From Xanthobacteraceae bacterium (GTDB lineage: Bacteria; Pseudomonadota; Alphaproteobacteria; Rhizobiales; Xanthobacteraceae): a DNA stretch of 64,000 nucleotides. Below, one piece after another: positions 1 through 14,463 of this stretch. The stretch spans positions 310,001-374,000 of the forward strand of contig JAHBZE010000001.1 of the NCBI GenBank assembly GCA_019635585.1, given 5' to 3'. The notes beneath the pieces are model-generated. The model had not been told where the DNA came from. It worked only from the letters and a program-made list of their open reading frames with translations, and searched no databases. The position numbers and the translations under genes are program-made. Position 1 is the stretch's first letter; each line of letters begins with the position of its first letter.

Positions 1-19
1 AGTTCTAATTTGAGAGTAG

Positions 20-868: not shown

Positions 869-880
869 TCCTTTTTCCTC

Positions 881-1240: not shown

Positions 1241-2250
1241 TGGCCTATTCCTTCCTCCGGCCAGTACAGCCGCATCGGGTTTTCGATAAGAAGCTTTCTT
1301 CGCTGCGTGACCGAGACTGCAATCTTCGGGATGAAATCGACGAGTTCTCCATCATCCGGTGCATGTGTCGTCATATTGGGATGCGGCCAATCGGTGCCCC
1401 ACAGCACGCGATCGGGAAATCGGCTTATGACTTCTCCGCAAAATGGAACTACATCGTTGTACGGAGGGCCGGTGACGCTTAAACGCTCCGGACAAGTAAC
1501 CTTCGACCAAAGATTCGGCATGTCCTCCATAAGAGTGAGAAAGCGCCGGAAGTTCGGATGGTCGATGCCTTTTGCTACATCGGGTCGGCCCATATGATCG
1601 ACGACCACCGTAACAGGTAGCGATCTTAGGAACGGCGTCAGGCCCTCAAGATCTTGCGCCTCGAAATACACAACGACGTGCCAGCCGAACTGCTTAATCC
1701 TTTCGACGATATCGAGATAAAACTCTTGGGGCCTTGTATCGACTAGTCGTCTGACAAAATTAAAGCGCACCCCGCGAATGCCGGCTTCGTCCATCGAGCG
1801 GAGTTCAGCGTCGGAAATATTGGCGGGAATATCGGCAACGCCCCTTGCCCTGTTTCCCGCCGTGCGAAGCGCATCAAGCACCGCGCTATTGTCTTTGCCA
1901 TGACAAGTTGCCTGCACGATCACGTTGCGAGTGAAGCCGAGATAGTCGCGCAAGGCGAAGAGTTTGTCTTTGCCCGCGTCGCATGGCGTGTATTTCCGCT
2001 CCGGCGCGAAGGGAAACTCCGCTGCGGGACCGAACACATGACAATGGGCATCGACAGCCCCGACCGGAAGCCGGTAACCGGGCTTTCGAGGGTTTGGGTG
2101 AAACGGTATCCAACCCGCGCCGGGCTGCGCGGATGACGCCGACTTGATAGAGCCGGCGACTGCGCGCGTCTGCCTTATCTGACGTGCCCAGCACACGCGC
2201 GGCTCGTGCGCCTTACTGTTCGTCGATACTTCGGCGATCTGCAGTGTCAC
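1237..2250 (-). CDS. ligI: 2-pyrone-4,6-dicarboxylate hydrolase (amidohydrolase superfamily)
   Basis: 337 residues from a GTG start. LigI hydrolyses 2-pyrone-4,6-dicarboxylate to 4-oxalomesaconate, the step after LigC. Seen in the protein: the HxH motif in VDAHCHVF (H69, H71), the strand-end histidine in VVVDHMGRP (H219) and the catalytic aspartate in WGTDWPHPN (D287), typical of the PDC hydrolase branch. The GTG at 2250 has a good SD (aagggg, about six bases away) and no ATG lies between it and the core, so the protein carries about 45 residues ahead of the usual beginning near GWIPFHPNP. A second GTG at 2196 is a possible alternative. First gene of ligI-ligA-ligB, divergent from the LysR gene. 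Confidence 0.9.
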   Translation of the reverse strand: MTLQIAEVSTNSKAHEPRVCWARQIRQTRAVAGSIKSASSAQPGAGWIPFHPNPRKPGYRLPVGAVDAHCHVFGPAAEFPFAPERKYTPCDAGKDKLFALRDYLGFTRNVIVQATCHGKDNSAVLDALRTAGNRARGVADIPANISDAELRSMDEAGIRGVRFNFVRRLVDTRPQEFYLDIVERIKQFGWHVVVYFEAQDLEGLTPFLRSLPVTVVVDHMGRPDVAKGIDHPNFRRFLTLMEDMPNLWSKVTCPERLSVTGPPYNDVVPFCGEVISRFPDRVLWGTDWPHPNMTTHAPDDGELVDFIPKIAVSVTQRRKLLIENPMRLYWPEEGIGQ

Positions 2251-2331
2251 TCGCGCCCCTTGAATCTATATGGCCAGAGGTTGCGGGGGCTTGGAAGAAC
2301 TGGCTATTTCAAAGAAGTTCGGGGGTATAAA

Positions 2332-2347
2332 TTTGCGCTAGAGCAAA
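2332..2347. promoter_or_regulatory. Inverted repeat in the ligI-lysR divergent promoter
   Basis: TTTGC, six bases, GCAAA: a perfect 5-6-5 palindrome lying 35 bases before the LysR ATG and 82 bases before the ligI GTG. LysR regulators usually bind dyads of about this size (T-N11-A type) between divergent genes, so this is the best candidate operator in the 131-base gap. Binding is inference. Confidence 0.45.
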
Positions 2348-2381
2348 GCGCGCCTGAAATCCGGTGCCAGACTGATCGTCG

Positions 2382-3659
2382 ATGCATTCGTCGTTCGTGC
2401 AGTTTACCCTACCGAACCTTCGACACCTTAGAGCGGGCCTTGAGGTGGCGCGAGCGCATTCCATTACGCGCGCAGCCCGGTGCGTCCATCTTTCCCAGCC
2501 GGCTGTTACCCAAGCCATAAACAAACTCGAACGAAACCTCGGAGTAACGCTGTTTGAGCGTGGTTTTTTGGGTCTGATACCCACAGCCGCGGGCGGCGCA
2601 TTCTTCACGCGAGTTGAGCGAGCCTTTGATCTTCTGCAAAAAGGCGCTGAGCAGGCATTGCGCACGAGTTCTCCAGCGACGCGGTGCGGCTTCAGCAATT
2701 TTCATGCGCTGATGACAGCACAACAGCTGCGCGCCTTGATCGCCGTCAGCGATCACGGGAATTTTTCCGTAGCCGCACGCGAGATGGGCCTCGCGCAACC
2801 GAGCGTTCATCGATCGGCCCGCAATCTGGAGTCGCTTTCCGGGCTAGCGTTGTTTCGGACAACCCCGATCGGTATCGAGTTGACCGCCGTCGCGCAGATT
2901 CTCCTGCTTGCGGCTAAACTCGCCTGTTCGGAAATTCGGCAGGGCCTCGATCAGATCAAAGAGGAGACCGGAAGGGGGAGAACCCAGTTTTTGTTGGGCG
3001 CTCTGCCGATGTCCCGCACCGCAATTGTGCCTGCTGCGGTCGCAGAGATGGTTCGTTCTGCGCCGGGGTCGCAAATTCACGTAGTCGACGGCCGTTATGA
3101 AGAACTGCTCCGAAGCCTGCGCGAGGGCGATCTTGATTGTCTGATCGGAGCGCTTCGGGAACCGGTCCCCGCGGACGATGTTATCCAAGAGCCTCTTTTC
3201 TTCGATGCACTGGCTATCGTTGCCCGCAAGGATCATCCGCTAGCGCGGAAGAAAAGAGTATCCCTTGAGGACACGTTGGCGTTTCCCTGGGTTGCACCAC
3301 CCAAGACAACTCCCGCCGGCGCCTACTTGTTCAAAAAGCTTCGTATAGGAGAAATGAAGCAGACGCCGGTTCGGGTCGTTTCGTCGTCGCTTGTCTTCCT
3401 CAGGGGTCTTTTGCAAAGCGGAGACTATCTTACGATCATTTCGAGGCACCAGATTCGCGATGAAGAGATGCAAGGACTGCTGACCGCCCTGCCGGTTTCT
3501 CTCAGAGATAACAACCTTTCGATTGGGCTCACCTACCGCAAGAACTGGAAACCAACCACGATCCAGGCGCGCTTCTTGGATCAGTTGCGAAGGGCCGCTT
3601 TCAGTTCGAAAGCGGCCGCCGTGCCTATAGAAGAAACTTATCAGGCCGAAGCCGTTTGA
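2382..3659 (+). CDS. LysR-type regulator with two tandem HTH domains, likely controls lig genes
   Basis: 425 residues, about 120 more than a normal LysR protein. The extra length is a second DNA-binding domain. The first winged helix spans about residues 11-95, with recognition region SITRAARCVHLSQPAVTQAI at 27-46; the second spans about 109-190, with NFSVAAREMGLAQPSVHRSA at 127-146. A single effector-binding domain follows from about residue 200 to 400. It sits between the divergent ligIAB genes and ligC, so regulation of protocatechuate 4,5-cleavage is the natural guess, with a pathway intermediate as effector. No strong SD is visible at the ATG. Domain reading is firm; target genes are inferred. 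Confidence 0.88.
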   Translation: MHSSFVQFTLPNLRHLRAGLEVARAHSITRAARCVHLSQPAVTQAINKLERNLGVTLFERGFLGLIPTAAGGAFFTRVERAFDLLQKGAEQALRTSSPATRCGFSNFHALMTAQQLRALIAVSDHGNFSVAAREMGLAQPSVHRSARNLESLSGLALFRTTPIGIELTAVAQILLLAAKLACSEIRQGLDQIKEETGRGRTQFLLGALPMSRTAIVPAAVAEMVRSAPGSQIHVVDGRYEELLRSLREGDLDCLIGALREPVPADDVIQEPLFFDALAIVARKDHPLARKKRVSLEDTLAFPWVAPPKTTPAGAYLFKKLRIGEMKQTPVRVVSSSLVFLRGLLQSGDYLTIISRHQIRDEEMQGLLTALPVSLRDNNLSIGLTYRKNWKPTTIQARFLDQLRRAAFSSKAAAVPIEETYQAEAV

Positions 3660-3731
3660 ATTGGCCGCATGGTCGGGCTTCGGGAATGGTCCGCATAAAT
3701 GAATGATTTGAATCGATTGTAAGGGGATGCA

Positions 3732-4676
3732 ATGCGAATTTGCGTTGCCGGCGCTTATGGTGCCTTCGGACTCAAGCATCTTGATGCTCTTGCAAACATA
3801 AAGGGCGTGACCGTTACGTCTGTGATGGGACCAACGCGAACGAAGATCGATACACTTGCCCGCGATCGCGGCATTCGCCATGCATCTACAGACTTGGAAG
3901 AGTGCATCGCACGCGAGGATGTCGATGCGATCATTCTTTCCACGCCGACGCAAATGCACGCTTCACAGGCGATCGCCTGCATGCGCGCCGGGAAGCATGT
4001 CCTGGTCGAAATCCCGATGGCGGATAACCTTGCGGACAGCGAGGCTATTGTGCGGATGCAGAGCGAAACCGGTCTCGTTTGCATGGCCGGCCAGGTCCGC
4101 CGCTTTAATCCGTCGCACCAGTGGATTCACAATCGCATCAAGCGCGGCGAACTGAAGATCCAGCAAATGGATGTCCAGACTTACTTTTTTCGGCGTACGA
4201 ATATGAATGCCAAAGGCGAGCCGCGCAGCTGGACTGACCATCTGCTCTGGCATCACGCATGTCACACGGTCGATCTGTTCCAGCATCAAACCGGCGAAAC
4301 AGTATCCGAAGCCTACGGCTTACAGGGGCCACTTCATCCCGATCTGAAAATAGCGATGGATATGTCGATCGGTATGAAGACGCCGTCTGGTGCCATCTGC
4401 ACACTGTCACTAAGCTTTAACAACGACGGTCCGCTTGGAACGTTCTTTCGCTATATCTGCGATAACGGCACCTACATCGCGCGTTACGACGATCTTTTCG
4501 ACGGAAAGGAAAAGCCGATCGACCTTTCCGGCGTGGCGGTCTCAAGCAACGGAATCGAACTAATCGATCGAGAATTCATCGAAGCCATCGTCCATGGGCG
4601 GACCCCGAATGGTTCAGTCGAACAGGTATTGCCGGCAATGGCCACCCTTGATCGCATCGAGCGAGCATTTAAGTAA
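3732..4676 (+). CDS. ligC: 4-carboxy-2-hydroxymuconate-6-semialdehyde dehydrogenase (Gfo/Idh/MocA family)
   Basis: 314 residues, the length of LigC (about 315). LigC oxidises the cyclised ring-opening product to 2-pyrone-4,6-dicarboxylate with NADP. The N-terminal Rossmann motif is VAGAYGAFG (residues 5-13). Where most Gfo/Idh/MocA proteins have the EKP triad this one has EIP (E93-I94-P95), so the usual catalytic lysine is missing, consistent with an unusual hemiacetal-oxidising member. The region LLWHHACHTVDLF (around 175) carries the conserved C-terminal domain histidines. SD aagggg lies eight bases before the ATG. It follows the LysR gene after 72 bases on the same strand. A different Gfo/Idh sugar dehydrogenase is possible but the lig context makes LigC much more likely. 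Confidence 0.86.
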   Translation: MRICVAGAYGAFGLKHLDALANIKGVTVTSVMGPTRTKIDTLARDRGIRHASTDLEECIAREDVDAIILSTPTQMHASQAIACMRAGKHVLVEIPMADNLADSEAIVRMQSETGLVCMAGQVRRFNPSHQWIHNRIKRGELKIQQMDVQTYFFRRTNMNAKGEPRSWTDHLLWHHACHTVDLFQHQTGETVSEAYGLQGPLHPDLKIAMDMSIGMKTPSGAICTLSLSFNNDGPLGTFFRYICDNGTYIARYDDLFDGKEKPIDLSGVAVSSNGIELIDREFIEAIVHGRTPNGSVEQVLPAMATLDRIERAFK

Positions 4677-4711
4677 AATGTATAGAAGCCTAGTCGCCAC
4701 GTGGGCGGTAT

Positions 4712-4749
4712 GACCCCGGCAGGACTCGATCTGCGACCAACAGCTTAGA
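4712..4749. repeat. Degenerate copy of the tRNA-Arg 3' end (old att site)
   Basis: About 38 bases matching the 3' part of the tRNA-Arg gene at 14391-14431, in the same orientation. It has the blocks gaccccggcagg and ctgcgaccaacagcttaga intact, with a few substitutions and one deletion in the T-loop region. No acceptor or D arm is present, so it is not a tRNA. Best explained as a decayed attachment site from an earlier integration at the same tRNA. Confidence 0.75.
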
Positions 4750-4803
4750 GATTTTTTGGAAAAGCCGATAATTTCAACGCCCTATTCCGAGAAAATTTCC
4801 CTT

Positions 4804-4837
4804 CAAGCGGCGCTATCTAACAAGCGGCGCTATCTAA
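4804..4837. repeat. Perfect tandem duplication of a 17-base unit
   Basis: The unit caagcggcgctatctaa occurs twice with no spacer (4804-4820 and 4821-4837). It lies 55 bases from the degenerate att copy and just beyond the end of the AraC gene. It could be slippage or a recombination-related repeat; no function can be read from it. Confidence 0.8.
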
Positions 4838-4877
4838 TAAGACGAAGTATCAGTTGTCGGAATGACATCGCAGACTT

Positions 4878-5846
4878 TTACACCAAACGTCTAAGCGTTT
4901 CGGAAGGCAGCTCGCCAAACCTATTGCGGTAATACCTCGCAAAATGCCCTGCATTGTGAAAACCGCATGCGTAAGCGACCCCAATGATGGATGTTCCCGG
5001 TTTTGCTTCGCTTAGCATCCTCCGAGCGTGCTCCAAGCGCACTTGTTTCACGACATCCATAGGAGAGCATCCGCGACTTTCTTGGAATCCTTTGAACAAA
5101 CTTCGGGCGCTGCAGCCGACAAAAGATACTAGTGATTCAATGGTAATAGGCTTGCTCCAATTCTCTCGAATGTACTCCTCAGCCAACCTAACTTGCCAGC
5201 GGGACGGCGCTCGAATGTCCTGTATCAGTTCAGAACTAAGATTGTGCGGGTTTGCAAACAAGAATGAAACGGCCAGCGCCTGCTCTACTTCTTGTATAGC
5301 GAGTTCCGGAAGAGCGGAGTCAAGACGGCCTATTTCATTTACTAAATACGAAAATAGACGAAGGAATGATCCTGTCTCCCTGCGATGAACTGGCGAAGAC
5401 ATTTCGAATTCAAGCGTCTTGATCGATCTACCAATCAGCGCCTCGAGTTTTGCGATCAGAGGAGCCGCATCAACTCTCAAAACAAGTTGCTCATAGTCGC
5501 CGCCGAAACTGAGTATCGACTCTCGGTTTCCCGACGTTATGCACGAGACATCGCGGGTTACTTCTACCGCTTTTCCACTCGCTTCAGTCTTTCCCGCTCC
5601 TCTCAAACAAATTTGCTGGCGGTAGTAGTTTGTGGCTGGGAAAGATAGTTCGACAGGCGCCCCGTAGGAACAAAGAGATATCCCTAATATTTTTAGCTGC
5701 CTATGATTTGCTTTAGCTTGAAATTTGCGATTAGACCCGAGCAAATTAAATGATGATGCTCCAAAGGTTTCAAGAAGTGCGTTTCGCATTACCTCGGGAT
5801 CTTGGGTTCGGATCACCGGAAATGCGTCCAAAGCGTGCGTCGTCAT
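4878..5846 (-). CDS. AraC-family transcriptional regulator
   Basis: 322 residues from the ATG at 5846. The N-terminal two thirds resembles the AraC-binding-like domain of the ligand-responsive activators (with stretches such as ICLRGAGKTEA and YEQLVLRVDAAPL), and the last about 100 residues form the double HTH: the first helix-turn-helix around SIESLVSFVGCSARSLFKGF and the second ending in GVAYACGFHNAGHFARYYRN. An upstream GTG at 5924 in the same frame is possible, but nothing there looks conserved. It is one of only two genes between two tRNA-Arg-derived repeats (4712 and 6427), and its codon use is visibly more A/T-rich than in the core genes. Target genes unknown. Confidence 0.88.
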   Translation of the reverse strand: MTTHALDAFPVIRTQDPEVMRNALLETFGASSFNLLGSNRKFQAKANHRQLKILGISLCSYGAPVELSFPATNYYRQQICLRGAGKTEASGKAVEVTRDVSCITSGNRESILSFGGDYEQLVLRVDAAPLIAKLEALIGRSIKTLEFEMSSPVHRRETGSFLRLFSYLVNEIGRLDSALPELAIQEVEQALAVSFLFANPHNLSSELIQDIRAPSRWQVRLAEEYIRENWSKPITIESLVSFVGCSARSLFKGFQESRGCSPMDVVKQVRLEHARRMLSEAKPGTSIIGVAYACGFHNAGHFARYYRNRFGELPSETLRRLV

Positions 5847-6031
5847 AGGTGATATTTCCGCGTAAAAAGCATCCCAGTATCCCGTAGCGGGAGCTTTACG
5901 CCACCCAAAAAATGCCGTCTCCACTCAGTTTGCGCAACAATCGCCGGCATTTCGGCACTTAGTGCACTCCTTGGATAAATCTGTCCTTTCCCGCTGAATG
6001 ATAGAAATCTCTCAAGTTTAAGGGGGACGTC

Positions 6032-6253
6032 ATGAAGTACGTTGAATGCACAATCTGTTCCGACGAGCACGCAGAATGGTGGGTAAACACTCCTGCAGAG
6101 AACGTAGGCCCTCTAAAGTCGCTCGAATCGGCGCTCGAGATTGCAGTTGCAGAAGCCGATGGATACGAGCTTCTTGGCGCGGAAGTCTCTATCAACATCA
6201 AAGACCGCTACGGAAAAACAAAGCCAATAGCTGAATGGTCCACTCTCAAATAG
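6032..6253 (+). CDS. Hypothetical 73-residue protein
   Basis: A small soluble, acidic protein preceded by a clear SD (aaggggg) six bases before the ATG. It begins MKYVECTICSDEHAEWWVN, with a CxxC pair at positions 6 and 9 and a nearby histidine, so a small metal site is conceivable, though no full zinc ribbon is present. No family recognised. It is divergent from the AraC gene (186 bases apart) and lies in the same cassette between tRNA-derived repeats. The good SD and sensible composition support a real gene; function unknown. Confidence 0.55.
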   Translation: MKYVECTICSDEHAEWWVNTPAENVGPLKSLESALEIAVAEADGYELLGAEVSINIKDRYGKTKPIAEWSTLK

Positions 6254-6378
6254 CGTCTGTCGCGTTCGAGTGAATCACTTTTCAATAGGGGCTATCGAGT
6301 TGAACTCTTTATGATCGCGGAAAGAAGTAGCAAGACCATTCAGTGCCACGATTTACCAACAGCCTTGTTGGAATAGTT

Positions 6379-6398
6379 TGTCGGAATGAACTCCGACA
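6379..6398. promoter_or_regulatory. Inverted repeat beside the att copy
   Basis: TGTCGGA, six bases, TCCGACA: a perfect seven-base dyad, 29 bases before the tRNA-derived repeat. A 12-base string that includes its left arm (ttgtcggaatga, 6378-6389) recurs at 4854-4865. It might be an arm-type site for integrase or an excisionase/repressor operator; this is a guess. Confidence 0.4.
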
Positions 6399-6420
6399 TT
6401 ATCGCTAACTCTTTGCAAAT

Positions 6421-6467
6421 ATTGGAGACCCCGGCAGGAATCGAACCTGCGACCAACAGCTTAGAAG
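6421..6467. repeat. Integration-site copy of the tRNA-Arg(UCU) 3' end
   Basis: Bases 6427-6467 are identical over 41 positions to 14391-14431 in the tRNA-Arg gene, and the match extends leftwards to attgg with one mismatch, thus including the encoded CCA. The repeat covers the T arm, variable region and the 3' side of the anticodon arm, then stops. Same orientation as the intact tRNA, as expected for the distal att site of an integrated element. The integrase gene starts about 160 bases away. Confidence 0.9.
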
Positions 6468-6628
6468 TCACTTAGCCACTAAGGCACTGGTGTTCTTTGT
6501 GATTCCCTGAGCGACAATTTCTATGTTGTAAGGCGCATCTCCACTCCTAGGCTGTTACCGAGATTCCGTAGTTTGGATCGCCGGTGTTTCCCCGGTGCTT
6601 CCCCAACCAGAGTGACTCGGTACCGCAA

Positions 6629-7894
6629 ATGCGACTAAGCAAGCGTTCGATAGACGCGTTGAAGCGTGCTCCGAATGAGTTTTCGGTATGGGATAGCGCC
6701 GTACCCGGCTTTGGCGTGAGGGTTCGTCCAACCGGAGCCAAGTCATTTATCGTACTGTACCGCGCTGGTATCGGTCGCGGCGCGCCCGTCCGACGATTTA
6801 CGATTGCTGCTGTGGGCAAGCTCACAGCGGAACAAGCAAGAGACCGCGCCAGAATAGTTTTAGGCGCAGTCGCAAACGATTACGACCCGGCTAGACAGAA
6901 GACGGAAGAACGAGCCTTTCCAACGGTAGCGGAATTGGCCGACCAATTCCTATCAAACCACGTGCGTGTGAAGCTCAAGCCTCACACTGCCGAATTCTAT
7001 TCCGACATTTTAGAGCGACTGGTGAAACCAACATTCGGCACTACAAAGTCAGATAAGCTATCCCGACTTCAACTTGCGAAGCTCCACTCGTCCCTCCATC
7101 AGACGCCGTTTCAAGCGAACCGAATGCTGACGGTGGTCGGAAGCATGTATTCCTTCGCCTGTCATGCGGGTGTCGTTCCGGAAGGACTCTCACCGGTAAA
7201 GGGAATCGCAAAGTTCAAGGAAAACCGACGAGAGCGTTTCCTAACCACCGGAGAGCTCGAGAGATTGGGTCACGCTCTTAGGACTGCAGAGAAAACTGGA
7301 ATTCCCTGGAATGTGGACGAGCAGAAGGTCGGTGCGAAACATGTTCCAAAGACTTCTCGCACAACGAAGATTGACCCAAACGCCGCTGCGGCCATTCGTC
7401 TACTTCTGTTCACGGGGTGCCGTCTGAGTGAAATCTTGCATCTACGCTGGGACTACGTGGATTTTGAACGCGGATGTCTATTCTTGCCAGACAGTAAGAC
7501 TGGCCGGAAGACGATAATCCTCAATGCACCTGCCTTGGCGGTATTGAATTCGATCAAGCGAGGCAGCCCCTACGTTGTGCCCGGAAGCGACCCGCAAAAG
7601 CCTCGCCACGATCTAAAGCGTCCTTGGGCCGCCGTAACGCTACAGGCACGCCTTTCAGGAGTCCGTCTTCATGACTTGCGTCACACCTACGCGAGTTTTG
7701 GCGCGGGCAGCGGTCTGGGATTGCCGATTATCGGTCGATTACTTGGCCACGCCCATGTCGCCACCACCGCGCGCTACGCTCACCTCGATAGCGATCCGCT
7801 GCGGAGAGCGTCAGAGTCTATCGCCGGGCAAATCGCGGCCGCGATGAACTCAGAAAACTTCACAGAGATAGTACCTACTAGGTCGTCGACATGA
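6629..7894 (+). CDS. Tyrosine recombinase / tRNA-targeting integrase (P4-like)
   Basis: 421 residues from the ATG at 6629 (an in-frame ATG at 6584 adds 15 weak residues). The N-terminal domain (SKRSIDALK, then GFGVRVRPTGAKSFIVLYR) is the DUF4102-like arm-binding region of P4-type integrases; a core-binding SAM-like domain follows at about 95-200. All catalytic residues are present: R265 (TGCRLSE), K290 (SKTGRKT), H348 and R351 (HDLRHTY), H374 (LLGHAH) and Y383 (TTARYAHL). It lies just inside the att copy at 6421-6467 and reads into the island, so it most likely integrated this DNA at tRNA-Arg. It looks intact and possibly still active. Confidence 0.93.
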   Translation: MRLSKRSIDALKRAPNEFSVWDSAVPGFGVRVRPTGAKSFIVLYRAGIGRGAPVRRFTIAAVGKLTAEQARDRARIVLGAVANDYDPARQKTEERAFPTVAELADQFLSNHVRVKLKPHTAEFYSDILERLVKPTFGTTKSDKLSRLQLAKLHSSLHQTPFQANRMLTVVGSMYSFACHAGVVPEGLSPVKGIAKFKENRRERFLTTGELERLGHALRTAEKTGIPWNVDEQKVGAKHVPKTSRTTKIDPNAAAAIRLLLFTGCRLSEILHLRWDYVDFERGCLFLPDSKTGRKTIILNAPALAVLNSIKRGSPYVVPGSDPQKPRHDLKRPWAAVTLQARLSGVRLHDLRHTYASFGAGSGLGLPIIGRLLGHAHVATTARYAHLDSDPLRRASESIAGQIAAAMNSENFTEIVPTRSST

Positions 7895-7926
7895 GGCCGC
7901 GACCAGCCTGCTAAAACTCATCTCCG

Positions 7927-8346
7927 TTACGCGGCTCGAACAGGCGCGAGGCGGCCTTTGAAGTAGCGTTCATTTTGAGTTACGCCGCTATGCCCGTAAG
8001 CATCGCCTGGTACTTCATTTACAAGAACATAGCTTTCGTCGTGCAGCGGTCCGACTAGCTCACACATCCTTGCAAACGCCGCCGCGATAAAATCAGACTT
8101 TTGTTCTCGCGTATTGGTGCTTTCAACTATGCGAATCTCGAGCCAGAACGCCGCGAGTTCATGTTCGGCCAAAGATTTATTTCCAATGAACCACCGATCT
8201 GCGGCGACCTCATCGATTACAACCGCCGTGAGCGTAGGGTTCTTCTTTAGAAAATCCGTGGAAAGTTTGTTGACCGCTTTTGCAACCTCCTTACAAAGTC
8301 CGGGGCGGGCTTTGGGAACACTATATTTCACGGTGATCATGGGCAT
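7927..8346 (-). CDS. Tautomerase-superfamily protein with N-terminal proline
   Basis: 139 residues starting MPMITVKYSVP. The ATG at 8346 has a good SD (gaggag, about ten bases) and exposes Pro1 after methionine removal, the general base of this superfamily. The length is about twice that of a 4-oxalocrotonate tautomerase, so it should contain two beta-alpha-beta units like cis-3-chloroacrylate dehalogenase-type or malonate-semialdehyde decarboxylase-type members; the second ends VNEVPGDAYGHSGVTQ. It converges with the integrase gene and lies downstream of the ABC operon, separated by a hairpin. Substrate unknown; a keto-enol isomerisation in aromatic or unsaturated acid breakdown is plausible. 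Confidence 0.8.
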   Translation of the reverse strand: MPMITVKYSVPKARPGLCKEVAKAVNKLSTDFLKKNPTLTAVVIDEVAADRWFIGNKSLAEHELAAFWLEIRIVESTNTREQKSDFIAAAFARMCELVGPLHDESYVLVNEVPGDAYGHSGVTQNERYFKGRLAPVRAA

Positions 8347-8483
8347 TGATAGGCTCTCCTCTAATTGACACAAACCTAAAAGTTTGGGCTGCTGATTTTT
8401 GACGAGAAGACGTTTGCTGACGACGCTTGGCCAAATTGGCGCTGTCAGACCGATATGCTTTCTTTGATTGTCTGATGAACTGC

Positions 8484-8518
8484 GTTGCCGCGCACACTAC
8501 TAGCGCATGCGCGGCAAC
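8484..8518. terminator. Strong hairpin after the ABC importer operon
   Basis: Ten-base perfect arms GTTGCCGCGC (8484-8493) and GCGCGGCAAC (8509-8518) with a 15-base loop, seven bases beyond the stop of the substrate-binding protein gene. The plus-strand side is followed by ttttgttt. Likely ends or processes the minus-strand operon transcript, or protects its 3' end. Confidence 0.55.
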
Positions 8519-8524
8519 TTTTGT

Positions 8525-9583
8525 TTAAGGCTTGAACACGAAGCCCGGTGTAATCGCGACCTCTGCAGGAATTGGTTGAAGGTCCGAGAACAGCTCCGGG
8601 TGCGTCTTCATCACGTTAAGGATGAACTTGGGCTCGATGTGCTTATTCACATCGAACACCGTCTTGATCACTCCCAGCCGTTGCAACGTATCCTGCGCTC
8701 TCCAAAGCGCACGATAGTTGTGAGCGGAAATCCGGCGATCCACCTGCTGGATGTTGTACTGCATCGCAGTTTCTGCAACATCGAGCTTCAGCCCGGGAAT
8801 CCAGCGTGTGCCGATGGCCGCAGCTTCCTTGGGATTTTTACGCATCCACTGGTCAGCTTCGGATACGGCCGCGAGGAACTTCTCAATCGTCGGTCCGTTT
8901 TTCTCCACCCACGGCCGCAGCGCGATATTGAAGCCGAGATAGGAGATAACGTCACCGCCGCGGATTACCTCGATAGCGCCCGGCACATCCTTCATGGCGA
9001 TTACCGGCGCCGGGTCCCAGGCCACAAACGCATCAACGCCCTTGGCGAGCAACGCGACCGTCATTTCCGGCGGCGGCGTGTTGACCATCGTCACGTCGCT
9101 CGGCGCAAGGCCGGCCTTTTCAAGCAAGCCGAGAAGGTAGAGATGGTTAATCGTGCCGAATGAGGTGGCAATCTTTTTGCCCTTGATACTTTTCAAATCG
9201 CCCTTGACGATCCCGGAACCGCCATTGGCAATTAAAGCGAGCGTGGCATCTGATCCAAGCTTCGTCGCGTTGCCGCTGAAGTTTCCGAAGAAAACCAGAT
9301 CCATACCGCGTAGAATTGCGCCGATTGCTGGCACGCCCGCCTGCACCATATCGGTTTCACCGGCCTGCAACGCGTTGAGTGCGTCGACGCCCGTGGCGTA
9401 GGGACGAGCGATGGTCACGTCGAGCCCGTACTTCTCGAAGAAGCCGCGCTCGACAGCAATCGGCAACGCCAGCATGTCCACCGCCGCAACCATGCCGACT
9501 TTGAGTTTTACGGGATCCTTTGCCTGTGCCATTGCCAGTGACGGCAGCAGCAAGGCGCAGAGCAATACAATTATCCGTCGCAT
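8525..9583 (-). CDS. ABC transporter periplasmic substrate-binding protein (NMT1/SsuA-like)
   Basis: 352 residues. The ATG at 9583 is preceded by a strong SD (aggaggg, eight bases) and begins a clear signal peptide (MRRIIVLLCALLLPSLAMAQA). The mature part, starting KDPVKLKVGMVAAVDMLALP, has the NMT1/THI5-like fold of nitrate/sulfonate/taurine-type binding proteins, with GLDVTIARPYATGVDALNAL and the later AFVAWDPAPVIAM typical of the family. It is the last gene of an operon with permeases and ATPase. Substrate cannot be read; related systems import organosulfonates, taurine, pyrimidine precursors or aromatic acids. Confidence 0.88.
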   Translation of the reverse strand: MRRIIVLLCALLLPSLAMAQAKDPVKLKVGMVAAVDMLALPIAVERGFFEKYGLDVTIARPYATGVDALNALQAGETDMVQAGVPAIGAILRGMDLVFFGNFSGNATKLGSDATLALIANGGSGIVKGDLKSIKGKKIATSFGTINHLYLLGLLEKAGLAPSDVTMVNTPPPEMTVALLAKGVDAFVAWDPAPVIAMKDVPGAIEVIRGGDVISYLGFNIALRPWVEKNGPTIEKFLAAVSEADQWMRKNPKEAAAIGTRWIPGLKLDVAETAMQYNIQQVDRRISAHNYRALWRAQDTLQRLGVIKTVFDVNKHIEPKFILNVMKTHPELFSDLQPIPAEVAITPGFVFKP

Positions 9584-9588
9584 TTCAC

Positions 9589-9912
9589 TTACCCTCCTGT
9601 TGGAAGCGGCTCGACGCGCGTAACCCAATAGCGACGGGCGACGGTTGTCAGGTCCGCTCGTTTCACTCCCCGAATTTTTATGGAGTTTTGTTGTGTCCCA
9701 GACACCCTGCCGTAGGTCTGGAACAATTGGACGTGGAAGCGCTCCGGAGGGAACGGCAGGGTCACGAGTATGTTGACTCTTTCCGGAGCGTCTCCAAGGT
9801 CTTTGATCTTATATGGGGCAGCGATTGTTAGCCAAATTTCCCACGCGATGTAGCAAGCCGCCAGAAAAAGCAGGATGCGCGCCTTTCGCGAATTGAGTGC
9901 GTCGCGCAGCAT
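9589..9912 (-). CDS. Hypothetical membrane-anchored protein of the ABC operon
   Basis: 107 residues. One N-terminal membrane helix (ILLFLAACYIAWEIWLTIAA, about 13-32) is followed by a soluble part of about 75 residues with no recognised fold. Placed between the ATPase gene (ends 9916) and the substrate-binding protein (starts 9583) with gaps of only three to five bases, so it is surely co-translated with the importer. The short soluble domain probably faces the periplasm. A helper for substrate delivery is conceivable; I recognise no family. Confidence 0.72.
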   Translation of the reverse strand: MLRDALNSRKARILLFLAACYIAWEIWLTIAAPYKIKDLGDAPERVNILVTLPFPPERFHVQLFQTYGRVSGTQQNSIKIRGVKRADLTTVARRYWVTRVEPLPTGG

Positions 9913-9915
9913 GGT

Positions 9916-10674
9916 TCAGGCCGATCGTACGAGCTGAAGAACGCGCGCGGTCAATGATTTGAACTGCTCGTTCTCATGGAGATCGTCCCAGACGCGAGGA
10001 CGCGGCAAGTCCACCTCGATTTCGTCCAGCACTTTGCCCTTGGACAGCGCAACGACGCGGTTGGCGAGAAAGACAGCCTCTGCAACGTCATGGGTGATGA
10101 AGATGACAGTTGGGCGCTTCGCTTCCCAGATGCGCGTCAGTTCCTCTTGCAAGGTCATGCGCGTCTGCGCGTCCACGCTTGCGAACGGTTCATCCATCAA
10201 CAACACGTCCGGCTCATTGGCGAGCGCTCGCGCCACGCCAACACGTTGCTGCATGCCGCCTGACAACTCGTTGGGATAACGCCCCGCAGCTTCCGAAAGC
10301 TTTGCGAGTGCGAGAAACTCATGTGCGATTTTCTCACGTTCTACCTTGCCGACGCCGCGCATTTTCGGCCCGAACGCCACGTTCTCGAGTACGGTGCGCC
10401 ACGGGAATAAAGCGAATGACTGAAACACCACGCCGCGATCCGGTCCCGGTCCATTCACGGGCTTGCCACCAACAAGAATCTCTCCACTCGAGTGCGGAAT
10501 GAAACCAGCGATCATGTTGAGGATCGTCGATTTTCCGCAGCCTGACGGTCCAACGATCGAGATGAACTCGCTCTCGGGCACATTGAGCGATACGTCGCGC
10601 ACAGCTGTCACCTGCGTTCCAGCGTAAACGTCGAAATAGGTCTTCGACAGATTGCGAATAACTAGATTCTTCAC
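9916..10674 (-). CDS. ABC transporter ATP-binding protein (SsuB/TauB type)
   Basis: 252 residues from a GTG at 10674, where GTGA overlaps the stop of the upstream permease; this start gives the normal beginning VKNLVIRNLSKTY. Walker A is GPSGCGKST, the signature is LSGGMQQRV, Walker B is LLMDEPF and the switch histidine lies in FITHD. It energises uptake by the two permeases encoded upstream. Same-frame sequence before 10674 is non-conserved and overlaps the permease, so a longer form is unlikely. Confidence 0.92.
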   Translation of the reverse strand: MKNLVIRNLSKTYFDVYAGTQVTAVRDVSLNVPESEFISIVGPSGCGKSTILNMIAGFIPHSSGEILVGGKPVNGPGPDRGVVFQSFALFPWRTVLENVAFGPKMRGVGKVEREKIAHEFLALAKLSEAAGRYPNELSGGMQQRVGVARALANEPDVLLMDEPFASVDAQTRMTLQEELTRIWEAKRPTVIFITHDVAEAVFLANRVVALSKGKVLDEIEVDLPRPRVWDDLHENEQFKSLTARVLQLVRSA

Positions 10675-11480
10675 TGCGTCACCAACCCCCACCGTTGTCC
10701 GGTAGCCCGCTCGAGTGGCGCTAAAATCCAAGCGTCTACGATGTACCAAAGAATGCCGAGGATGATCATGCCCAGCAGAACCTCGACAAGCGATCCGCCG
10801 CGGCGAGCATCAAACATCAGAAATCCGATGCCGCTGGTGCCGACGATAATCTCGGTCGCGATCAGCGCACGCCAACCGTAGCCAAGTCCGTTGCGTAAAC
10901 CCGTGATGATGTTGGGGAGCGCGCCCGGCAACACAACTTCCCAAAGCAGGCGAGCGCGCGATGCACCGAGGCTCAGCGCTGCACGATGCAGGGTGATGGA
11001 TGTTGAACGGACTCCCAATACAGTATTCAGAACGACCGGGAAGATCACCGTGTAGACGATGATGACCGTCATCGTAGTCAGGCCGTAACCGAACCAGATC
11101 ACCAAGATCGGCAGCCAGGCGATATCGCCGATGGCCTGGAAGAACAGGAGCGGCGGCCAAAGTACTGTGTGCGCTCGCGGGCTGAGGCCGATGAATATGC
11201 CGAGCGGAATGCCGAGGACGATACCCCAGAACGCGCCGACGACGAGGCGCACCATGCTGTCTTGAAGATACTCCGGCAGGATACCCGTATACACGAGCGT
11301 ACCAAACGAGCGCACGACATCCACCGGTCCCGGCAGGAACACGCGGGGAAATATTTGGAGTTCAGTAATGATCCACCAGGCTGCGATCAAGGGGATGAAC
11401 GGCGCGATTGAGCCAATTGAGGGCCAGCGCGCTGTGAGGCGCACATAGCCACTCCATATCGTGAGAAAAAATGTTTTCAT
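10671..11480 (-). CDS. ABC transporter permease (SsuC/TauC type), second copy
   Basis: 269 residues with about six membrane segments and the coupling-helix motif in SLGASRARLLWEVVLPGALPNI (about 165-186; the EAA-like loop that contacts the ATPase). Clearly paralogous to the next gene upstream, sharing the EVxLPGALPNI core and the ending APxERATxxRWG. Its start overlaps the stop of that gene (11477-11480) and its stop overlaps the ATPase GTG. The two permeases may form a heterodimeric channel. Confidence 0.91.
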   Translation of the reverse strand: MKTFFLTIWSGYVRLTARWPSIGSIAPFIPLIAAWWIITELQIFPRVFLPGPVDVVRSFGTLVYTGILPEYLQDSMVRLVVGAFWGIVLGIPLGIFIGLSPRAHTVLWPPLLFFQAIGDIAWLPILVIWFGYGLTTMTVIIVYTVIFPVVLNTVLGVRSTSITLHRAALSLGASRARLLWEVVLPGALPNIITGLRNGLGYGWRALIATEIIVGTSGIGFLMFDARRGGSLVEVLLGMIILGILWYIVDAWILAPLERATGQRWGLVTQ

Positions 11481-12253
11481 GCGCGCTGCACCATGCCCCA
11501 GCGTTCGATGGTCGCGCGTTCAATCGGCGCCAGGAGCAACCGGTCGAGTAGCAGCCAAAGCACACCGATCACGATCATGCCGAGTACGATCACTTCGGTC
11601 TTGTAGAAGTCGCGCGCCACAAACAGCATGTAACCGAGGCCGACATTGGTGGCGATCATCTCGGCTGCGATCAGCCCGCGCCAGGCAAAGCCCATGCCGG
11701 TGCGTATGCCAGTTACAATGTTAGGGAGTGCGCCTGGCAACAGCACTTCGGTCAACATCGCCCATCGGCCTGCACCGAGCGATGCGGCTGCATTGCGCAC
11801 GTGCAGAGGAATGGTCGAGACGCCGAGCAGCGTGTTGTAAGTTACGATGAAGAACACAGCATTGAAGATGATGAAGGTGATGGCGCCGAACCCGTAGCCG
11901 AACCACAGCGTCGCAATCGGAATCCACGCGATGCCAGCCAGTACGGAGAAGAACCTGAACAGCGGTGTCAGGAAGGTGGAGACGACCGGGCTGACACCCA
12001 TAGCGACGCCGAGGGGAATGGCGACCAATAGCGCGAGCAACGTTCCGACAGCGACCCGCAACAGGCTAGCACCGATGTGTTGAACAAGAGTTCCATCCTG
12101 TATTCCCTCAATGCCAGCTTGAACTACAGCCGTGAGGTGAGGAAATAGCCGAGGATTGACGTCGAAGTATGGAATTAAAATCGCCCAAAGAACGATTAGC
12201 ACTGCAAAAGGTGCGCAGAACCAAAGCGCGGAAATGAACGAGCGCTTCGTCAT
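11477..12253 (-). CDS. ABC transporter permease (SsuC/TauC type), first copy
   Basis: 258 residues, about six membrane segments beginning at ISALWFCAPFAVLIVLWAIL. The BPD_transp_1 coupling loop is ASLGAGRWAMLTEVLLPGAL. It is similar along its whole length to the following permease, so the pair arose by tandem duplication. Its ATG overlaps the GntR stop by four bases, which ties regulator and transporter into one transcript. Confidence 0.91.
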   Translation of the reverse strand: MTKRSFISALWFCAPFAVLIVLWAILIPYFDVNPRLFPHLTAVVQAGIEGIQDGTLVQHIGASLLRVAVGTLLALLVAIPLGVAMGVSPVVSTFLTPLFRFFSVLAGIAWIPIATLWFGYGFGAITFIIFNAVFFIVTYNTLLGVSTIPLHVRNAAASLGAGRWAMLTEVLLPGALPNIVTGIRTGMGFAWRGLIAAEMIATNVGLGYMLFVARDFYKTEVIVLGMIVIGVLWLLLDRLLLAPIERATIERWGMVQRA

Positions 12254-13038
12254 TTCTTCAGCCTCGGATTGGCGGCTTTAACTGTCCCAACTTTGCGAGC
12301 CTTGGCTTGACGATTTCGCGTAGCCAATTTGGACTGGGTGTAGCCAAGGACTCGCTCCATGGCGATACGTGCTTTCTTCGCATTGCCTTCCTCGATGGCG
12401 CGAGCAGCGGCGGCATGATTGGGAATATTGTCTGCGAACCAGCCATCGATACTGTCGACGGCGACGACAAAGACCGCGCTCAGAATTGTGTCGATGGCGC
12501 CGCGAAAGCCCTGCAATACTGGATTGTGTGTCGCGTCCAGAATAGCGAGATGAAAGGCCTTGTCGGCGGCGGTCGCGCTGTCCTGACTGTCCGAACTCTC
12601 CATCGCCCGCAGCGCTGCATTAATATTCTGCAGATCGTTCTTGGTGGCGCGTGTAGCTGCGAGCGCGGCAGCAGCGGGCTCAATGATTGAGCGGACTTCT
12701 TGCACGGCAAGTAATAATTCGAGGTCGGGTTTGTCGTCGCCGATCAGCCAACCCAACACGTCGCGATCGAGAAGACTCCAATCGCGCCGCGGCAATACAC
12801 GGGTGCCATGACGCGGTTGAACGCTGATAAGGCGCTTGCCCGACAGTGTTTTGATTGCCTCACGAACTACACCGCGACCTACGCCGAAGCGAGCCTCGAG
12901 ATCACTCTCTGGCGGCAGTACTGCACCGGCTGGGATGATGTCCTGAGCGATCTCGCGGCCGAGTGTCGTCAGTACCGCCTGAATGCGGCCTGGCTTCGAT
13001 CGCTTCTCAGCAGATTTGGTGCGTTTGCTACGCATTAA
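12250..13038 (-). CDS. GntR-family regulator, FadR/FCD subgroup
   Basis: 262 residues from the ATG at 13038. The N-terminal winged helix (GREIAQDIIPAGAVLPPESD, then FGVGRGVVREAIKTLSGKRL, about 20-85) is followed by an all-helical FCD effector domain (about 105-235) with the metal/ligand-type histidines AFHLAILDATHNP. First gene of the importer operon and divergent from the iron alcohol dehydrogenase gene, so it probably controls both in response to a small organic acid. A longer in-frame start at 13119 exists but would eat into the intergenic region holding the putative operator. Confidence 0.9.
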   Translation of the reverse strand, partial: LMRSKRTKSAEKRSKPGRIQAVLTTLGREIAQDIIPAGAVLPPESDLEARFGVGRGVVREAIKTLSGKRLISVQPRHGTRVLPRRDWSLLDRDVLGWLIGDDKPDLELLLAVQEVRSIIEPAAAALAATRATKNDLQNINAALRAMESSDSQDSATAADKAFHLAILDATHNPVLQGFRGAIDTILSAVFVVAVDSIDGWFADNIPNHAAAARAIEEGNAKKARIAMERVLGYTQSKLATRNRQAKARKVGTVKAANPRLKK

Positions 13039-13098
13039 AATCTGTTCGCTCCCCACTGCTGGCTCTTGAGGCCAACTAGCGCGTTTTAACTTTTTCAC

Positions 13099-13143
13099 CG
13101 GACCAAATTGCCGGACCAATCATCTGATGTTAAACATCCGATG
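13099..13143. promoter_or_regulatory. Putative GntR operator region
   Basis: In the gap between the GntR gene and the alcohol dehydrogenase gene there are two direct copies of ccggaccaa (13099 and 13111, twelve bases apart), then a dyad CATCTGATG, five bases, CATCCGATG (13121-13143; one mismatch between arms). It lies 53 bases before the dehydrogenase ATG. FadR-type GntR proteins bind short dyads; assignment is inferred from position. Confidence 0.45.
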
Positions 13144-13196
13144 AATGGAGTCACGCTGCGATGCAACGATGGCGTTGACTGCCGGGGAGAAGGAAC

Positions 13197-14324
13197 ATGG
13201 CGACCATTGGCTATCTGACGACAACTATTTTTGATTTCGGCGCCATCAGGTCCCTACCGAACGAATTGAATGCCCTTGGCATTCGTCGGCCGTTGTTCGT
13301 CACGGATCCCGGCGTACAAAATGCTGGCATTGCAGCGCAGGTGCTGAGTCACCTCGACCAATCCACTGTAAGAGTGTTCGCGGACACGCCCCCGAATCCC
13401 ACTGAAGAAGCCGTACGCGCAGGCGTCATTGCGTACCGCGACGGCGGCTGCGATGGCATCATTGCACTCGGCGGCGGTTCGCCGATCGATCTTGCAAAAG
13501 GCGTCGCATTGGCGGCCACGCATGATGGGCCGCTGGAAGAATATGCAGCGATCCACGGCGGAGTTAGCAAAATCTCCGCGAAGGTCGCGCCGGTGATCGC
13601 GATCCCAACTACTTCGGGAACTGGCAGCGAGGTAGGCCGCGGCACGTTGCTCAATTTGACCAACGGCTCGAAACTCGCGTTGATTAGCCCACACTTATTT
13701 CCGAAAAGAGCGATTTGCGATCCTGAACTCACGCTGGGACTTCCACCGTTGTTGACGGCGGCGACTGGCATCGATGCGCTTACCCATTGTATTGAGACGT
13801 ATCTTTCACCGCTAATCAATCCGCCGGCGGAAGCGATTGCACTCGACGGTGCGAAACGCGCATGGAATTTCATCGAGCGTGCAACCAAGAACGGTGCTGA
13901 CCGCGAAGCGCGTTGGGAAATGATGATGGCAGCGCTGGAAGGTGCGCTCGCGTTTCAGAAGGGGCTTGGCGCTGTGCATTCACTGTCCCACGCCGCCGGC
14001 GCATTACGCTCGCCGACGTTGCATCACGGCATGCTGAACGGCGTGTTCCTGCCGCACATTTTGCGGTTCAACGCTGCCCACGTCGGCGATAAATACGCCA
14101 AACTGCGCGAGCTGTTCTCGCTTGATCGCAACGTAGACTTGGCCGACTCAGTGGTTCGTTTGCTTAAGAACTTGGGTTTGCCACTGACGCTGGGCGAAAT
14201 GGGATTCCGAGAAGAACACATTGCCGGGACAGTGACGCGAGCGATGGCGGACCATTCCAACCCCACCACCCCACGCCGCCCAACTGCTAAAGAATTCGAG
14301 ACGCTACTTCGCGCAGCGCTGTAG
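13197..14324 (+). CDS. Iron-containing (group III) alcohol dehydrogenase
   Basis: 375 residues. The nucleotide-binding part has GGGSPIDLAKGVAL (about 92-105) and the family signature IPTTSGTGSEVGR. Metal ligands fit D-x3-H in GIDALTHCIE (about 195-199) and the two later histidines in GAVHSLSHAAG and LHHGMLNGV. The ATG is preceded by gggagaaggaac. It reads away from the GntR regulator, so it is likely induced with the importer and oxidises or reduces an alcohol/aldehyde made from the imported compound. Maleylacetate reductase and hydroxyacid dehydrogenases are in the same superfamily; I cannot choose among them. Confidence 0.88.
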   Translation: MATIGYLTTTIFDFGAIRSLPNELNALGIRRPLFVTDPGVQNAGIAAQVLSHLDQSTVRVFADTPPNPTEEAVRAGVIAYRDGGCDGIIALGGGSPIDLAKGVALAATHDGPLEEYAAIHGGVSKISAKVAPVIAIPTTSGTGSEVGRGTLLNLTNGSKLALISPHLFPKRAICDPELTLGLPPLLTAATGIDALTHCIETYLSPLINPPAEAIALDGAKRAWNFIERATKNGADREARWEMMMAALEGALAFQKGLGAVHSLSHAAGALRSPTLHHGMLNGVFLPHILRFNAAHVGDKYAKLRELFSLDRNVDLADSVVRLLKNLGLPLTLGEMGFREEHIAGTVTRAMADHSNPTTPRRPTAKEFETLLRAAL

Positions 14325-14386
14325 CTTGCTTGGGGCGGTGCATCGCGCGAACAAAATCGCTGCGCGACATCCGGAAGCTGAAAAAT

Positions 14387-14463
14387 TGGCGACCCCGGCA
14401 GGAATCGAACCTGCGACCAACAGCTTAGAAGGCTGCTGCTCTAATCCGCTGAGCTACGGGGCC
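14387..14463 (-). tRNA. tRNA-Arg (anticodon UCU)
   Basis: Read on the minus strand: acceptor GGCCCCG pairs with CGGGGTC (one G-U), D arm around GCTCAGCGGATTAGAGC, anticodon loop CTTCTAA giving anticodon TCT, T arm CGCAGGTTCGAATCCTGC, discriminator G and an encoded CCA at 14387-14389. Complete and apparently functional. Its 3' half is the integration target copied at 6421-6467 and, degenerate, at 4712-4749. Confidence 0.97.

Follow-up and report, generated by a model that had tools for sequence, protein, structure and literature searches.

Why does the 3' half of a single tRNA gene recur several times along one stretch of chromosome? The question is raised by the window, a 64,000-nucleotide stretch of a Xanthobacteraceae genome (G000), in which a preliminary description had reported three tRNA-Arg(UCU) 3' halves in one orientation. 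All three were recovered, in one common orientation:

14387..14463, minus strand: intact tRNA-Arg(UCU) gene (anticodon TCT; anticodon loop 14425-14431), the putative attachment site
6423..6467, plus strand: copy B, matching the tRNA-Arg 3' half at 44/45 and forming the left junction of the integrase island
4711..4862, plus strand: copy C, degenerate tRNA-Arg 3' half (4711-4749), then right arm

The 41 identical bases already described at 6427-6467 are an exact run shared by copy B and the tRNA gene, and with one mismatch allowed the match extends to 6423-6467 (44/45). This is far above chance level, as the best ungapped match of the 45-mer in 60 first-order simulated windows was 28/45 (mean 25.7). 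Copy C reaches only 27/45 ungapped, inside the simulated range, because of an indel. The case for copy C as a tRNA half rests on its gapped match (4712-4749; 39 aligned positions at 92%, one of them a 1-base gap; whole-genome search, E 1.1e-8) and on its arm; against a profile that includes copy C as 1 of its 17 rows, copy and arm together scored 102 bits (E 9.6e-30). Whole-genome searching also revealed a fourth copy in this orientation, D, lying 10.3 kb to the left of base 1 (G000:C1:299713-299757, 42/45), giving four copies within about 25 kb at the tRNA-Arg locus, and another on contig C2 (843206-843346) whose left half differs (34/45). The shared block stops at the edge of the anticodon loop in both of the element families described below.

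The arrangement is best explained by site-specific insertions that have stacked up at the 3' half of tRNA-Arg(UCU), an explanation to which we assign, as a whole, a probability of about 0.7. We infer that each insertion involved recombination in or beside the anticodon loop, leaving the tRNA intact at one end and a 3'-half copy at the other, and that the last addition to the stack was an 8-kb integrase island, which separated the tRNA from an older 1.7-kb AraC segment. This segment, together with copy D further left, would represent a second family, namely gene blocks that end in a conserved ~215-bp site and contain no tyrosine integrase. Since they encode no such enzyme, these blocks were most likely moved in trans, and a recombinase recognising TTCCGACAAA-type arm sites may have moved them.

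The integrase island extends about 8 kb from copy B to the tRNA and has both a tyrosine integrase and an arm of its own:

6468..6540, plus strand: integrase-island arm (TCACTTAGCCACTAAGG...), unlike the cassette arm, aligning with G004 C168
6584..7894, plus strand: tyrosine integrase, 436 aa, Arm-DNA-bind_3 plus Phage_integrase (E 5.6e-18)
7927-8373, minus strand: tautomerase, cargo
8525-9628, minus strand: SsuA/NMT1-type binding protein, cargo
9589-9912, minus strand: small ORF, cargo, no Pfam match
9916-10749, minus strand: ABC ATPase, cargo
10671-11480, minus strand: ABC permease 1, cargo
11477-12253, minus strand: ABC permease 2, cargo
12250-13119, minus strand: GntR/FCD regulator, cargo
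13197-14324, plus strand: 4-hydroxybutyrate-dehydrogenase-type iron alcohol dehydrogenase, cargo

The integrase ORF lies about 115 bp from the tRNA core of copy B, which runs on into TCACTT..., a sequence that aligns with G004 C168, a locus at which a related integrase lies next to a different tRNA-like half. This stretch combines the marks of a genomic island: an integrase beside one junction, a 3'-end direct repeat with the tRNA intact, and an island-free site in relatives. In G002 and G007, two genomes of the same genus, the intact tRNA has a left arm as its immediate neighbour and the integrase island is missing; when the flanks of the island are joined, they agree with these relatives at 214/256 (G002) and 217/252 (G007) aligned positions, and with the arm-less G001 at 191/248. 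Since in G002 and G007 the left arm that precedes copy B in the window leads straight into the tRNA, and the AraC genes are found there in G002, the integrase island appears to be the youngest layer of the stack.

Copies C and B enclose the 1.7-kb AraC segment:

4878..5924, minus strand: AraC-family regulator, cargo (Pfam AraC_binding_2 and HTH_18)
6032..6253, plus strand: small ORF, 73 aa, cargo, no Pfam match
6352..6421, plus strand: left arm with TTTGTCGGAATGAACTCCGACA, right end of the segment (HMM 72.1 bits, E 1.5e-20, itself 1 of 9 seeds)

By BLAST, this left arm matches the arms next to the tRNA gene in G002 and G007. A homologue of the segment in G002 (C188:1392-2932; 86.4%, with 90.6% over 1353 bp in the inner part) carries the AraC gene and the small ORF and terminates at the intact tRNA; the 73-aa ORF has its close homologue at C188:2724-2969, likewise without a Pfam match. 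Beyond the small ORF the two genomes differ, G002 alone having an IS3-type insertion and a further stretch of about 1.65 kb that includes a TPR-like ORF. The tRNA junctions of the two genomes appear alike, and the difference in the right part leaves orthology unproven. The contents given in the preliminary description, an integrase with cargo inside the inner pair of repeats and an AraC gene with a small ORF inside the outer pair, agree with these results, and its proposal of an older insertion beside a younger one at one tRNA is supported by the G002 segment and the island-free junctions of G002 and G007. Two things lay beyond its reach: the copies fall into two element types distinguished by their arms, and a further copy lies outside the window.

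The arms define the second family. Copies C and D continue into a right arm of ~95 bp, TTCCGACAAA...TTTGTCGGAAT, unlike the arm at copy B; in copy C it is degenerate and holds a short tandem duplication. A full site of ~215 bp consists of a left arm (~70 bp), the tRNA half and the right arm (~95 bp). Right-arm copies occur in six of the eight genus genomes and bracket 13 segments; the relatives are mostly draft MAGs, whose contigs may be broken or joined at repeats. No PF00589 integrase was found in any of these 13 non-island segments, as against one in the single island. The left arm at the right end of the segments is clear in 8/13, weak in 1/13 and absent in 4/13 (those ending at G000 C, G002 C109c, and G007 a and b), so that some bracketed segments are not clean elements. 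All eight clear ends, first detected by BLAST with the flank of copy B, are among the nine seeds of the left-arm profile, which matched outside its seeds at G003 C5:29464-29514 and C12:49753-49820. In the stretches examined, no left arm precedes the copies that come first in an array (D, G000 C2, G002 C109a and C191a, G007 d and t, and G006), as attL/attR logic predicts. The a-b block of G003, which has the weak left arm, matches G002 C109:22199-30410, left of the first copy in that genome, and so may represent ordinary chromosomal sequence with a separate insertion on either side.

The segment cargo that was read is largely metabolic, and no transfer genes were recognised by eye in ORF reading and family searches of selected proteins. 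The cassettes at tRNA-Arg vary between relatives: G000 and G002 share AraC and otherwise differ, G007 has another segment, and G001 has none with these arms. A second locus common to G000 C2 and G007 C1 also differs in content, with a single copy and 15 kb in one of these genomes as against four copies and different cargo in its counterpart. Occurrence of the repeat at many unrelated places had been named beforehand as an observation that would count against an attachment site. That observation holds in part, as copies are present at other sites of this genome and its relatives; these share the arm, however, and many of them enclose cargo in the same manner, and they thereby extend the reading.

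Segment D-C begins outside the window, at copy D (G000:C1:299713), and positions 1..4676 of the window are its right part, with the lig cluster:

20-868, minus strand: LigB
881-1240, minus strand: LigA
1237-2250, minus strand: amidohydrolase
2382-3659, plus strand: LysR-type regulator
3732-4676, plus strand: Gfo/Idh/MocA dehydrogenase

The segment also carries pobA and a cbb3-oxidase (cco) cluster. The lig cluster had been proposed to belong to the older insertion; it lies not in the AraC insertion but in this third segment, and the presence of LigB in only 1/8 genus genomes would fit acquisition. The cco-pob-lig segment is unproven as one mobile unit, because no left arm precedes copy C and the cco genes are also present in G001, there without these repeats. 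Relatives with the tRNA directly beside the genes on the left had been suggested as the comparison to make: the left arm is directly at the tRNA in G002 and G007, and an empty site for copy D, with the tRNA immediately adjoining its left flank, was found in no genome. In G001 the tRNA abuts a homologue of the gene at G000:C1 241.3-241.8 kb.

The same arms are present in Bradyrhizobium, on tRNA-Lys- and Gly-type halves. A scan of named genomes returned 31 stretches, of which 10 were set aside as likely chance after sequence reading (three Coriobacteriaceae, Christensenella, Selenomonadaceae, two Spirosoma, Gracilibacteria, Paenibacillus and Qipengyuania); the 21 kept comprise 8 contigs of this genus (in G002-G004, G006 and G007), 12 from Bradyrhizobium and one from a marine alphaproteobacterium. 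A reversed-pattern control gave no matches in three genome pattern searches. A plasmid or phage source of the arms was rejected: among the matches listed (15 per collection), only query positions 64-139 of 261 were matched, corresponding to the tRNA core and a few bases, and 80% query coverage was reached at no place in the 35 and 173 matching plasmid and phage records. The one stretch matched in IMG/VR was taken as a chance match within an AT-rich ORF.

No cognate recombinase for the arm-bearing segments was found. One integrase does lie near the same arms, in B. nitroreducens (L069:1933-3090), at ~360 bp from arms that there accompany a tRNA-Gly half. Among 30 homologous loci (of 39 listed matches, about 1.5 kb each side), the arms are upstream only at L069 and downstream at L150 (one mismatch), and at the remaining 28 the arm scores are no better than those of shuffles. 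This integrase was rejected as the cognate enzyme and is more likely to have inserted beside a cassette, as in the window. A profile search also found no right-armed copy beside the G000 integrases at the 10 places covered, out of 12 listed (at least 1.3 kb each side), the other two being the window's own (in L012) and C1:1918014.

The integrase-less segments could alternatively be decayed islands (CIMEs), fossils that lost their integrases and kept their att ends, with only the 8-kb island alive. In the available excerpt of PMC5704250 such tandems are usually attributed to CIME accretion, and signs of decay are present, as copy C is degenerate, copy D has three changes and some left arms are missing. 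We nevertheless consider wholesale decay rather unlikely: a PF00589 integrase is kept in 0/13 non-island segments, several of which are compact 5-9 kb blocks with transporter and catabolic genes. In G002, which has nine armed copies, five of the six scored still have a perfect core (45/45) despite ~22% divergence of the right arms, which share 77.8% on average. The recurrence of the arms in Bradyrhizobium on other tRNA halves, with an integrase frame in 3/31 scanned loci, likewise speaks against it.

That the window integrase (6584-7894) or a relative moves all segments, given the common tRNA core, is suggested by its same core, same stop at the anticodon loop and adjacent location; in the same excerpt, tandem elements with very different integrases may be excised jointly or separately (PMC5704250). 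It is improbable, however, since its own arm differs and aligns with that of the G004 integrase, which sits at another tRNA-like half, and since its only close relative in the stretches compared is at G004 C168, the integrases of G000 C2, G005 and G007 standing at 25-31%. Copies also lie away from the tRNA locus, some of them with incomplete cores, and could point instead to a small interspersed repeat or transposon-like sequence that captured a tRNA half. We regard this as very improbable. Such a repeat would insert whole, but the left arm is missing from array-first copies, and in G002 and G007 the intact tRNA gene carries it and has no right arm, the pattern of integration at a tRNA 3' end; these split arms already disfavour it.

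The preferred stack of insertions resembles several known systems. Tandem accretion of CIMEs, IMEs and ICEs, in the part of PMC5704250 available, shares tandem elements at one target gene with internal chimeric att sites, and an integrase-bearing element adjoining integrase-less ones. The CIME definition, attL and attR without an integrase, describes segments found here (right and clear left arm in 8/13, PF00589 in 0/13); the difference from that account is that integrase-less segments of several genomes share one arm set, unlike that of the neighbouring integrase. Additive flexible genomic islands, such as Alteromonas fGI1 (PMC4119200) and Methylophilaceae fGI-2 with its recurring 20-bp tRNA-Lys repeats (PMC10872708), also have a tRNA target for metabolic cassettes, recurring 3'-end repeats and strain-variable length, and here too the same tRNA bears cassettes differing between related genomes. 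In the available excerpts those islands are described with the tRNA end alone as the repeat, whereas here the ~215-bp site has a conserved arm on each side, and these arms accompany other tRNA halves in another genus. Tycheposons, as excerpted from PMC10872708, are tRNA-anchored cargo elements with metabolic genes as well, but are described there with a tyrosine recombinase; the 8-kb island carries one, and none was detected in the segments (PF00589 0/13). Chromosomal (super)integrons, as generally known and in the available part of PMC4119200, share integrase-less units arranged head to tail with a common recombination site; here, in contrast, units reach operon size and the site is tRNA-derived. 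The window integrase, the only one of the genome scored, is not IntI (36.9 bits against TIGR02249, cut-off 265). The consensus fold of the site has 22 predicted pairs, 2 of them changed on both sides, and with so little covariation attC-like folding is not convincing. In titles and abstract beginnings of the open-licence literature, we found no description of these arms or of integrase-less tRNA cassettes in Xanthobacteraceae.

Tentatively, and at less than even odds, Xanthobacteraceae may have a trans-acting cassette system, integron-like in character, in which one shared recombinase places recombinase-less blocks of up to operon size head to tail, through ~215-bp tRNA-half/arm sites, at tRNA genes (Arg, Lys and Gly types) and at secondary sites. 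Catabolic gene clusters often lie at tRNA genes with nothing visible by which they could move. An end sequence that is conserved and searchable would make such clusters definable units with borders readable from sequence, and the arm sites would make the enzyme behind the movement of integrase-less islands a testable question. If one recombinase does serve many cargo blocks at several tRNAs, it would constitute a gene-sharing platform that is integron-like in logic.

The 3' half of tRNA-Arg(UCU) is indeed repeated in the studied genome (G000; 3.2 Mb, two contigs), as the preliminary description had noted. The window corresponds to G000:C1:310001-374000. In simulated windows, the best ungapped match reached at most 28/45 positions (60 simulations), against 44/45 for copy B and an alignment with an indel for copy C. 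A whole-genome search gave copy D, left of the window, and a further copy on contig C2. The copies around the gene are as follows (bare coordinates are window positions):

14387-14463, minus strand: intact tRNA-Arg(TCT)
6423-6467: copy B of the tRNA 3' half, exact run 6427-6467
4712-4749: copy C of the tRNA 3' half
C1:299713-299757: copy D of the tRNA 3' half, 42/45 identical, 10.3 kb left of window base 1

Identity among B, D and the gene runs as far as the right-hand border of the anticodon loop (TTAGAAG, 14425-14431), and the sequence beyond the shared block is not alike among the three. Because identity ends there, we infer a crossover beside the anticodon loop, a position described as classical for tyrosine recombinases of bacteria (PMC8371274). 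A degenerate tRNA-like sequence (G000:C1:299495-299571; L011:9495-9571 in the retrieved stretch) sits ∼140 bp to the left of copy D. ARAGORN calls it tRNA-Ala(tgc); read by eye, it resembles a decayed Cys/Ser-type tRNA and is perhaps another old attachment remnant. Also left of D, G000:C1:291082-295986 (L011:1082-5986) encodes a 1634-aa protein with many GGxGxD-type repeats, RTX-like by eye.

Two kinds of copy, B versus C and D, are told apart by the arm 3' of the core (the tRNA half). Copy B leads into TCACTTAGCCACTAAGG and a 436-aa tyrosine integrase ∼115 bp from the core. A related integrase in the same-genus genome G004 (tblastx pieces up to 68% identical) adjoins another tRNA-like half (type read by eye) and then a similar arm; the arm after B is therefore assigned to the integrase. 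Copies C and D lead into a second type of ∼95 bp, the right arm, whose intact form carries the inverted arm sites TTCCGACAAA and TTTGTCGGAAT, together spanning 62-63 bp; the right arm of copy C is degenerate. A profile of 144 positions was built from 17 copies (core plus right arm), which match it by construction. It matched all eight genus genomes at E <= 0.01, with armed copies in six; the matches in G001 are the tRNA gene and partial core only, and G005 gave one weak match (E 0.0099). The exact arm pattern occurred in 6/8 genus genomes, 10/391 family genomes (2/47 genera) and 2/397 genomes of the order, G000 included, with the reversed-pattern control at 0 throughout.

The left arm (∼70 bp) was initially found by BLAST with the flank of copy B. 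A model from nine sites, scanned over the retrieved stretches only (692,736 bases), matched outside its seeds at G003 C5:29464-29514 and C12:49753-49820. The scan of these stretches showed no left arm ahead of an array's first copy, and the intact tRNA of G002 and G007 has one next to it, as integration at the tRNA 3' end predicts. A partial copy starting inside the core occurs at G000:C1:1195593-1195713 and G007:C1:36631-36751 (both 74.3 bits), possibly an old secondary-site insertion.

In five genomes, 14 segments lie either between two copies or between one copy and the tRNA. One is the island from copy B to the tRNA, which contains its own integrase; the other 13 gave no PF00589 match (E <= 0.001), PF00589 being the recombinase class checked. 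A left arm at the right end is clear in eight of the 13, weak in one (G003 a-b) and absent from G000 D-C, G002 C109 b-c, G007 c-b and G007 b-a. Because the G003 a-b block matches a G002 stretch left of the first copy there, it needs further evidence before it is counted as an element. Family searches with a selection of the proteins named the following cargo:

TRAP transporter, dehydroquinase and shikimate dehydrogenase
ABC-type binding protein, amidohydrolase, CobW and FAA-hydrolase
NMT1-type binding protein and isochorismatase-type hydrolase
sulfatase and TctA/TctC
metallo-beta-lactamase-fold protein and TauE
AMP-binding enzyme and branched-chain-type binding protein
multicopper oxidase

The G007 tRNA segment and G002 C109 b-c have a 65%-identical stretch in common, which spans the G007 oxidase gene.

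The proposal of a younger insertion beside an older one is supported by two relatives that lack the island and have the left arm directly at the intact tRNA:

G002: left arm 5799-5858, tRNA from 5861
G007: left arm 313756-313824, tRNA from 313827

With the island flanks joined, aligned identity is 83.6% to G002, 86.1% to G007 and 77.0% to arm-less G001. The island is taken as the youngest layer at tRNA-Arg. The G002 segment ending at the tRNA opens with the AraC gene and small ORF of G000 (90.6% over 1353 bp). Its right part carries an IS3-type transposase pair (HTH_Tnp_1, rve) absent from G000, followed by ∼1.65 kb with a TPR-like ORF (by eye) that G000 lacks. The two junctions are alike, but orthology is not proven because the right part differs. 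The G007 tRNA segment is different and carries the multicopper oxidase, and in G001 the tRNA adjoins a gene whose homologue in G000 lies 82 kb away. A 122-bp stretch of the G002 tRNA segment (G002:C188:5314-5435) recurs at 83.6% identity on another contig, at C191:2979-3099.

Segment D-C (15.0 kb) holds pobA (TIGR02360), a cbb3-oxidase cluster (ccoN, O, P, G and a copper-type P-ATPase) and LigAB. LigB is present in one of the eight genus genomes and ccoN in three: G000, G001 (84% identity) and G005 (56%); G001 ccoN lies 19.5 kb from the tRNA. The lig cluster thus lies in a third segment, outside the AraC insertion, with the att-type copies D and C on either side; a single mobile unit is not proven, because copy C has no left arm and ccoN occurs in G001 without arm copies. 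The LysR-type regulator at 2382-3659 (425 aa) has two stretches that resemble the LysR N-terminus (about residues 12-95 and 111-406); its DNA-binding domain seems to be duplicated.

A scan of named genomes gave 31 stretches, including 12 from Bradyrhizobium and one from a marine alphaproteobacterium. Upstream of the arms stands a tRNA-Lys-type half in L051, L054, L059, L065 and L071 (Lys by eye) and a tRNA-Gly half in L069, agreeing with an annotated tRNA-Gly among the matches; in L052, L058 and L062 no more than roughly the final 12 bases of such a half are visible (read by eye). The integrase profile found frames in 3/31 loci (L047, L062, L069), and that of L062 need not belong to the arms because it starts at a tRNA-Leu gene. 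Bradyrhizobium sp. BTAi1 (G828; L057) has PF00589 matches of equal score and frame length at six places (56.7 bits, 430 aa each, one on C2), a multicopy integrase.

At a second locus (G000 C2 versus G007 C1), the left flank and first copy are common (93.6% over 283 bp); then follow 15.2 kb with one copy in G000 and 26.6 kb with four copies and other cargo in G007. Cores are perfect (45/45) in five of six scored G002 copies (nine armed, right arms sharing 77.8% on average) and in two of four scored in G007; D, C and the C2 copy of G000 are all imperfect. The perfect G002 cores and the differing cargo at the second locus may be taken as signs of recent movement. Beyond these stretches, a 24-kb block is 98.5% identical (G000:C2:858549-882732, L092 and L136, versus G007:C1:1229243-1205078), other compared stretches of the two genomes being mostly 81-93% identical. 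Neither end of this block showed a copy; the block adjoins the second cassette hotspot and was in all likelihood recently exchanged. C-terminal fragments of one integrase type lie at both ends of the G007 array (G007:C1:1256043-1256314 and 1233427-1233939; L024, L023), with a complete 431-aa relative at G000:C2:911799-913094; the array seems nested within a third island family.

Across the arm and integrase loci examined, no one integrase family stood repeatedly next to the arms, and the phage and plasmid matches listed covered the tRNA core only. The segments were most likely moved in trans by a recombinase recognising the arms; the main rival reading takes them for decayed CIMEs. The principle is already covered by CIMEs and IMEs that accrete in tandem (PMC5704250), by additive islands at tRNAs (PMC4119200, PMC10872708) and by tycheposons in the description given by PMC10872708. 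A two-armed site common to integrase-less blocks at several tRNAs was not found among the entries listed by searches of the open-licence literature.
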